From an uncultured Gammaproteobacteria bacterium (GTDB lineage: Bacteria; Pseudomonadota; Gammaproteobacteria; PS1; Pseudothioglobaceae), in the NCBI GenBank assembly GCA_902513495.1, contig CABXNH010000003.1, forward strand, positions 1 through 64,000: a DNA stretch of 64,000 nt, written 5' to 3'. Under the pieces are notes generated by a model. The model worked only from the letters and a program-made list of their open reading frames with translations. It searched no databases and was not told the origin of the DNA. Of the stretch, positions 50,709 to 51,187 are shown one piece after another. The translations under genes were made by a program, and so were the position numbers. Every line of letters starts with the position of its first letter. Within the stretch, counting starts at the first letter, position 1.

Positions 50709-50998
50709 ATTTATATTAATTAAAAAACCAAGTAATATTATACCTAATTACTTATTTGACGCCAATTGTAATATTGATATTAGATATTTGCTTATAAAAA
50801 AATTCAAACTGAATTGAAGTGGTTTATGAGTATAAAGAATTTATAAAAAAAATTTACTAAATGAATAATCTTTAGAAAATTATTTCAATAAAGTTAGTTT
50901 GTTTAGTATTTAACTCCTAATTATTTATGTAACAAAAATAACTACTATTTATTACTATAATTCAAACAGTAACCATCAGATTTATACAATTCTGAACC

Positions 50999-51058
50999 TG
51001 CCAAGGGGCGTTGCATTGAGGTCTACTCAATCAGGCTTGGCAATCGAAAACGACGCTC
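50999..51058 (+). ncRNA. SAH (S-adenosylhomocysteine) riboswitch-like element upstream of metF
   Basis: P1 TGCCAAG/CTTGGCA (50999-51005/51036-51042), P2 ATTGAG/CTCAAT (51015-51020/51026-51031), pseudoknot P4 GGGCGTTG/CGACGCTC (51006-51013/51051-51058, two wobbles); resembles remembered SAH core GAGGAGCGcUGC...CAGGCUCGGC...ACGCUC. Confidence 0.82.
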
Positions 51059-51085
51059 ATTTTTTTAACTTAACAGGAAAATGAA

Positions 51086-51187
51086 ATGAGCAATTCTTTC
51101 ACAAAAAATAATGACTTTAAGGCTCCTAATCTAAAACTTAGTTTGCTTAACAACTATCAGTTAGTCAATATAAGGGAGGAAAAATGA
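51086..51187 (+). CDS. Unlisted small ORF (33 aa) between the riboswitch and metF, overlapping metF by ATGA
   Basis: MSNSFTKNNDFKAPNLKLSLLNNYQLVNIREEK*; upstream AGGAAAATGAA; TGA at 51185-51187 overlaps the metF ATG at 51184. Confidence 0.5.
   Translation: MSNSFTKNNDFKAPNLKLSLLNNYQLVNIREEK

Follow-up and report, generated by a model that had tools for sequence, protein, structure and literature searches.

A putative relic of the ahcY reading frame between an SAH riboswitch and metF in the Thioglobus/SUP05 group

The locus analysed here raises the question of how an SAH riboswitch would act on metF when the start codon adjoining the switch belongs to a different, short reading frame. AhcY clears SAH, releasing homocysteine, and MetF supplies the methyl-THF with which homocysteine is remethylated to methionine. 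The analysis was carried out on a stretch of 64,000 nucleotides (the window), supplemented with genomes of relatives. A preliminary description of the element, made from the letters of the window, had proposed an SAH riboswitch-like pseudoknot in the metF leader; it contained neither the leader ORF, nor the AhcY origin of that ORF, nor the second copy of the switch before ahcY. The coordinates of all features are collected in Table 1.

The aptamer was assigned by comparison with RF01057, which aligned to the window along the entire model (positions 1-78) and scored 48.0 bits, above its gathering threshold of 37 bits; the E value was 8.9e-06 when the whole window was searched and 4.9e-08 when the search was confined to the 351-base region. 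When all Rfam families were run against the region with E values up to 1, RF01057 was the sole match and no SAM-binding family was returned. The class proposed in the preliminary description was thus borne out by the cmsearch named there as a check, in which RF01057 exceeded its cut-off and no SAM-family model scored better. The helices P1, P2 and P4 were likewise recovered at the positions and with the lengths reported earlier, P4 (8 bp) including its two wobbles, one G-U and one U-G pair, and the conserved SAH core GGxGCGxUGCA ... CAGGCU is present in the window together with P1, P2 and the pseudoknot P4. Among relatives (30 sequences), P4 is unbroken in 30/30, P1 shows a two-sided change from UGCC/GGCA to UACC/GGUA, and P2 varies in sequence, with the hairpin retained in each. 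The genomic context also fits the class (methyl-cycle genes: ahcY, metF and metH), with metF downstream and a second SAH copy before ahcY. Judged by its sequence, the metF leader carries a bona fide SAH riboswitch of the RF01057 class, whose aptamer would be expected to bind SAH. The hexamer just 5' of P1 is a tentative promoter candidate, -10-like hexamers being no commoner in the region than expected by chance (consensus scan).

Table 1. Positions of the features of the metF leader and of metF in the window.
Feature	Position	Strand	Basis
Weak -10-like hexamer TACAAT, possible promoter, just 5' of P1	50985..50990	+	consensus scan 9/12, tentative
SAH riboswitch aptamer	50997..51065	+	RF01057 match, 48.0 bits, full length
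P1 5' strand, TGCCAAG, 7 bp with 51036-51042	50999..51005	+	sequence
P4 5' strand, GGGCGTTG, pseudoknot with 51051-51058	51006..51013	+	sequence
P2 hairpin, ATTGAG 51015-51020 / CTCAAT 51026-51031, 6 bp	51015..51031	+	sequence
P1 3' strand, CTTGGCA	51036..51042	+	sequence
P4 3' strand, CGACGCTC; last four bases common to sequestor	51051..51058	+	sequence
Sequestor arm 1, GCUCAUUU, including first part of T tract	51055..51062	+	pairs with 51084-51091
AGGA, ribosome-binding site of leader ORF, inside sequestor loop	51075..51078	+	sequence; equivalent before ahcY
Sequestor arm 2, AAAUGAGC, leader ORF start codon and codon 2	51084..51091	+	folding, comparison of relatives
Leader ORF, 33 aa, putative relic of AhcY N-terminus; stop overlaps metF start (ATGA)	51086..51187	+	translation, homology statistics
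GGGAGG, metF ribosome-binding site, inside leader ORF	51174..51179	+	sequence; predicted mostly paired
metF, methylenetetrahydrofolate reductase, 317 aa	51184..52137	+	PF02219 and TIGR00676
MetF N-terminal extension, 47 aa	51184..51324	+	three of four riboswitch-carrying species

The second SAH riboswitch of the same genome (G000) lies directly before ahcY (C14:14874-14943). In 83 genomes of the family, RF01057 identified one copy in most and two copies in four, namely G000, G002, G011 and G013, in each of which one copy precedes ahcY and the other a metF standing alone. In the 70%-complete genome of the window, metF is the sole match to PF02219 (264.5 bits; TIGR00676, 308 bits, cut-off 293.7), and these family matches uphold the gene identity on which the earlier suggestion of metF as a coherent target was based. 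The relatives of MetF are labelled Candidatus Thioglobus, the closest one a Thiotrichales MAG, and the genome is a member of the Thioglobus/SUP05 group. Among the 83 family genomes, the N-terminal extension of MetF is confined to G000, G002 and G013, where it is 68-72% identical; searches for its origin returned only a weak second match (E 0.2) in the genome itself and, in the family, none outside G002 and G013. None of the start codons ATG, GTG and TTG opens the metF frame of G011 (L037), which would be explained by a homopolymer that differs in length close to the ATGA, through either an assembly error or a real frameshift.

While metF does lie downstream of the switch, as stated in the preliminary description, the start codon adjoining the switch is that of a 33-codon ORF at 51086 and not that of metF at 51184. 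It is to the former that a sequestor helix, GCUCAUUU/AAAUGAGC, joins the 3' strand of P4. On free folding of nearly every leader, GCUCAUUU was paired with AAAUGAGC, which contains the first two codons of either the leader ORF or ahcY, and the helix is possible in 30/30 sequences (29 unbroken, one with a mismatch, G017). Where codon 2 varies, the variants can still pair (AGC and AGU, with GGU in the ahcY of the window's genome), in a comparison of relatives that are not independent; AGY makes up 29% of the serine codons in the window. For 24 genomes outside the family, pairing of each genome's own sequestor arms gave -9.4 kcal/mol, compared with -6.5 kcal/mol (sd 0.36) for permuted arms (0/20,000 permutations), a difference to which composition and kinship could contribute, and several of these genomes show no good pairing; half of the sequestor is in any case under other constraints, the aptamer acting on GCUC and translation on AUG. 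The pairing is still retained in G077 and G081 (one mismatch in G077), where ~155 nt lie between P4 and the ahcY start. In both genomes (L126, L128), the stretch from the aptamer to the start of ahcY contains a stable hairpin of its own.

Since P4 and the sequestor have GCUC in common, they are mutually exclusive, and the start codon should become accessible once SAH is bound. As the pseudoknot is beyond the folding program, the bound state was represented by barring both P4 strands from other pairings. Between the free state and the state with P4 held, the modelled unpaired fraction of the leader AUG increased from 0.01 to 0.57 in the window, from 0.01 to 0.74 in G013 and from 0.00 to 0.56 in G002. 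Without SAH, GCUC in the 3' strand of P4 and the AUUU that follows would pair with AAAUGAGC, leaving the leader start codon hidden; upon accumulation of SAH, P1 and P4 would form around the ligand, P4 would take up GCUC and the start codon would be exposed. We infer from this architecture and modelling that the switch is a translational ON switch. An extra ATG (51081, ATGAAATGA), opening a two-codon frame (window 51081-51089), is located just 5' of the leader start; among the four metF leaders, it occurs in the window copy alone.

The origin of the leader ORF was traced by local alignment to AhcY. The leader ORF of G013 (MSNSPKKNNDFQIANLKLSGLINNYKLANTNLASIGEKK) aligned to the AhcY of the same genome (MSNSSIDNKDYKVTDLNLDGLNNDYKVADINLADFGRKE) with a best local score of 94 (shuffle maximum 48, n=2000), and that of G002 scored 60 (shuffle maximum 45). 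For the leader ORF of the window, the score was 53, which was reached by 1/2000 shuffles; among 338 ORF starts of the window used as a control, one reaches 53, presumably because the control set contained the leader ORF itself. The leader ORF of G011 scored 25 against AhcY, which is not significant, and is too diverged to recognise. The ahcY and metF copies in the window's genome have in common an exact 5' UTR stretch, ATTTTTTTAACTTAACAGGAAA. Taken together, the homology to AhcY and the shared 5' UTR therefore identify the metF leader as copied from the leader and the first codons of ahcY, and the sequences compared indicate that the ahcY switch, the start codon and the first ~30-40 codons are duplicated before metF. 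Both the start codon and codon 2 are parts of the switch, so that a duplication of the cassette could not leave them behind. In part of the genus (G000 C14 ahcY, L033), the AhcY N-termini contain an internal repeat, FKVADLNLDYKVADINLADFG, both halves of which are kept in the relic leader of G013.

The history of the arrangement was reconstructed from the MetF tree, in which the four switch-bearing species form one clade (support 100/99) with G018, G015 and G008 as its sister. In these three genomes, metF has a short upstream region without an SAH switch and adjoins what look like the tRNA and the divergent IF-1-like gene of the window. On a deeper branch (G001, G017, G019, G026), metF lies beside a divergent MetR-like gene and, unlike in the four species, has no SAH switch. 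A MetR-like regulator was not found in the other species of the genus, including the four switch-bearing ones, an absence weakened by the incompleteness of the genomes (two of the four are only 57-70% complete). MetR-controlled metF is the probable ancestral state in the genus, and the duplication probably took place a single time, in the ancestor of the four Thioglobus species; the simplest history leads from MetR control through a regulator-free metF to a single gain of the ahcY-derived switch. No PF02219 metF was found in several relatives within the range of the four species, including the single-contig genomes G006 and G028, so that loss after the gain, or transfer, is also needed. The leader DNA is too short for its tree to settle, on its own, whether the origin was single. 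In G006 (L071) and G010 (L069), which have no PF02219 metF, a distant MTHFR-like protein of about 300 aa is encoded next to a corrinoid-type protein and a methyl-THF:corrinoid methyltransferase, a set resembling the MetF2/Mtg methyl-oxidation set (PMC12478193).

Parallels were sought among the two-copy SAH genomes G148, G175, G185 and G221. One copy precedes metK in G148 and a metH-like gene in G175, and no relic ORF was seen behind either. The copy of G148 (L179) lies directly before metK, and the second is found 1.2 kb further on, before ahcY; metK is not a gene controlled by the SAH riboswitch class as described (PMC4239095).

The aptamer membership, the ahcY copy, the homology between the leader and AhcY, the shared sequestor and the single MetF clade are direct results of the computations. 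They are best explained, and in our view with good likelihood, by an SAH switch that was duplicated from ahcY together with its start and whose ON signal is relayed by the leader ORF to metF through coupling. The copied start codon and codon 2 would have been kept as a short ORF, ribosomes ending this ORF at the ATGA would restart on metF, and high SAH would thereby raise AhcY and MetF together, even though ahcY and metF are located on separate contigs. The relic ORF thus probably passes on the signal of the switch. At the junction, the stop codon of the leader ORF overlaps the metF start in an ATGA (51184-51187), and the same overlap is seen in G002 and G013 although the length of the frame has changed (33 codons in G000, 25 in G002, 39 in G013); the retention of the exact ATGA despite these in-frame changes favours termination-reinitiation. 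It also weighs, although the two mechanisms are not exclusive, against a response of metF that would depend mainly on Rho-dependent termination or mRNA decay of an untranslated leader, with the leader ORF still gated by the switch. This latter mechanism is a minor but credible possibility, in that some 100 nt of leader without translation could make the RNA accessible to Rho or RNases and a translational Mbox that is linked to Rho and has a uORF provides a precedent (PMC12810186). The ribosome-binding site of metF, GGGAGG, is a good one, so that metF may not depend wholly on the leader ORF. The strength of this site and the marked divergence of the G011 leader ORF would suit a leader ORF that is dead debris, with metF using its own site and no longer under the control of the switch. 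This is unlikely given that the aptamer and the sequestor are intact at metF in all four species, and that the open frame and the ATGA are retained in three of them. The metF site is, moreover, predicted to be mostly paired (0.31-0.46 unpaired), which fits, and does not prove, dependence on the leader ORF. Against debris also stands a synonymous bias between the leaders of G000 and G013, which differ at 9/15 synonymous compared with 10/69 other sites (Fisher p 0.0006; 28 codons, one pair, hand alignment). The same bias could point to a leader peptide that is itself functional, as a small protein or an attenuator, beyond passing on translation. Such a role is extremely unlikely, as the peptides of the four species range from 23 to 39 aa and differ widely in sequence, and a comparison with protein families gave no match above the cut-off, for which reason a known small protein was rejected.

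Transcriptional control had been suggested in the preliminary description, based on the ATTTTTTT tract that follows P4. On such a reading, the tract together with P4 would form (part of) an intrinsic terminator, and the leader ORF would be incidental. The seven T after P4 in the window, with one A between, agree with this proposal, but a scan of the region revealed no terminator-like hairpin, P4 encloses a loop of ~37 nt, and the tract is interrupted in some relatives (CATTTTATT in G013 ahcY, CATTTATTTTT in G001 and G019). Because P4 is formed in the SAH-bound aptamer, such a terminator would switch off with SAH, contrary to the direction published for the class. The tract finds its explanation as an arm of the start-codon sequestor, which renders a terminator unnecessary; the terminator reading was rejected for want of a hairpin and for the interruptions in relatives, and a transcriptional switch is very unlikely.

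The known members of the RF01057 class are found in beta- and gamma-proteobacteria, upstream of operons of ahcY or of ahcY and metF, with one or two switch-controlled operons per genome and with ahcY and metF as the core regulon (PMC4239095). The present system has the same aptamer and the same ahcY and metF regulon, whereas metF, which is part of the ahcY operon there (PMC4239095), stands alone here, on another contig and with its own switch and a relic of the ahcY start. The relay proposed for metF resembles that of M. tuberculosis ppe2, where a B12 riboswitch gates the short ORF uPPE2, whose stop overlaps the start of the next gene (AUGA), and termination-reinitiation drives ppe2 (PMC11260477). 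There, however, the aptamer binds B12 and acts as an OFF switch, and the coupling was tested by experiment, whereas here it is inferred; in the part of that report consulted, the uORF is not stated to derive from a former target gene of the switch (PMC11260477). The M. tuberculosis pe20 Mbox similarly uses a small upstream ORF, rv1805A, as a translational platform; it differs in being a Mg2+ sensor and Rho-linked; a homologue of rv1805A occurs at another place in the genome, yet no origin of this uORF from a gene formerly controlled by the switch is described (PMC12810186). The class of the aptamer is thus known, and what is new is an unusual architecture, a duplicated switch-plus-start cassette that would act through a relic ORF. 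That a cassette including the start moved to a new gene and that its relic ORF relays SAH to metF, in a lineage without MetR, we regard as reasonably probable.

If true, this arrangement would make it possible to trace one way in which a translational riboswitch gains a second target. The genome still contains the donor, and sister species have a switch-free metF; against this background, it would show a riboswitch passing to another gene together with the old start and a stub of the old gene, and would explain a short ORF between switch and gene that otherwise looks meaningless, suggesting a search for relic ORFs behind other riboswitches. For the organisms themselves, it would establish a natural two-gene SAH regulon (ahcY and metF) in a marine group that is known mostly from metagenomes and single cells.
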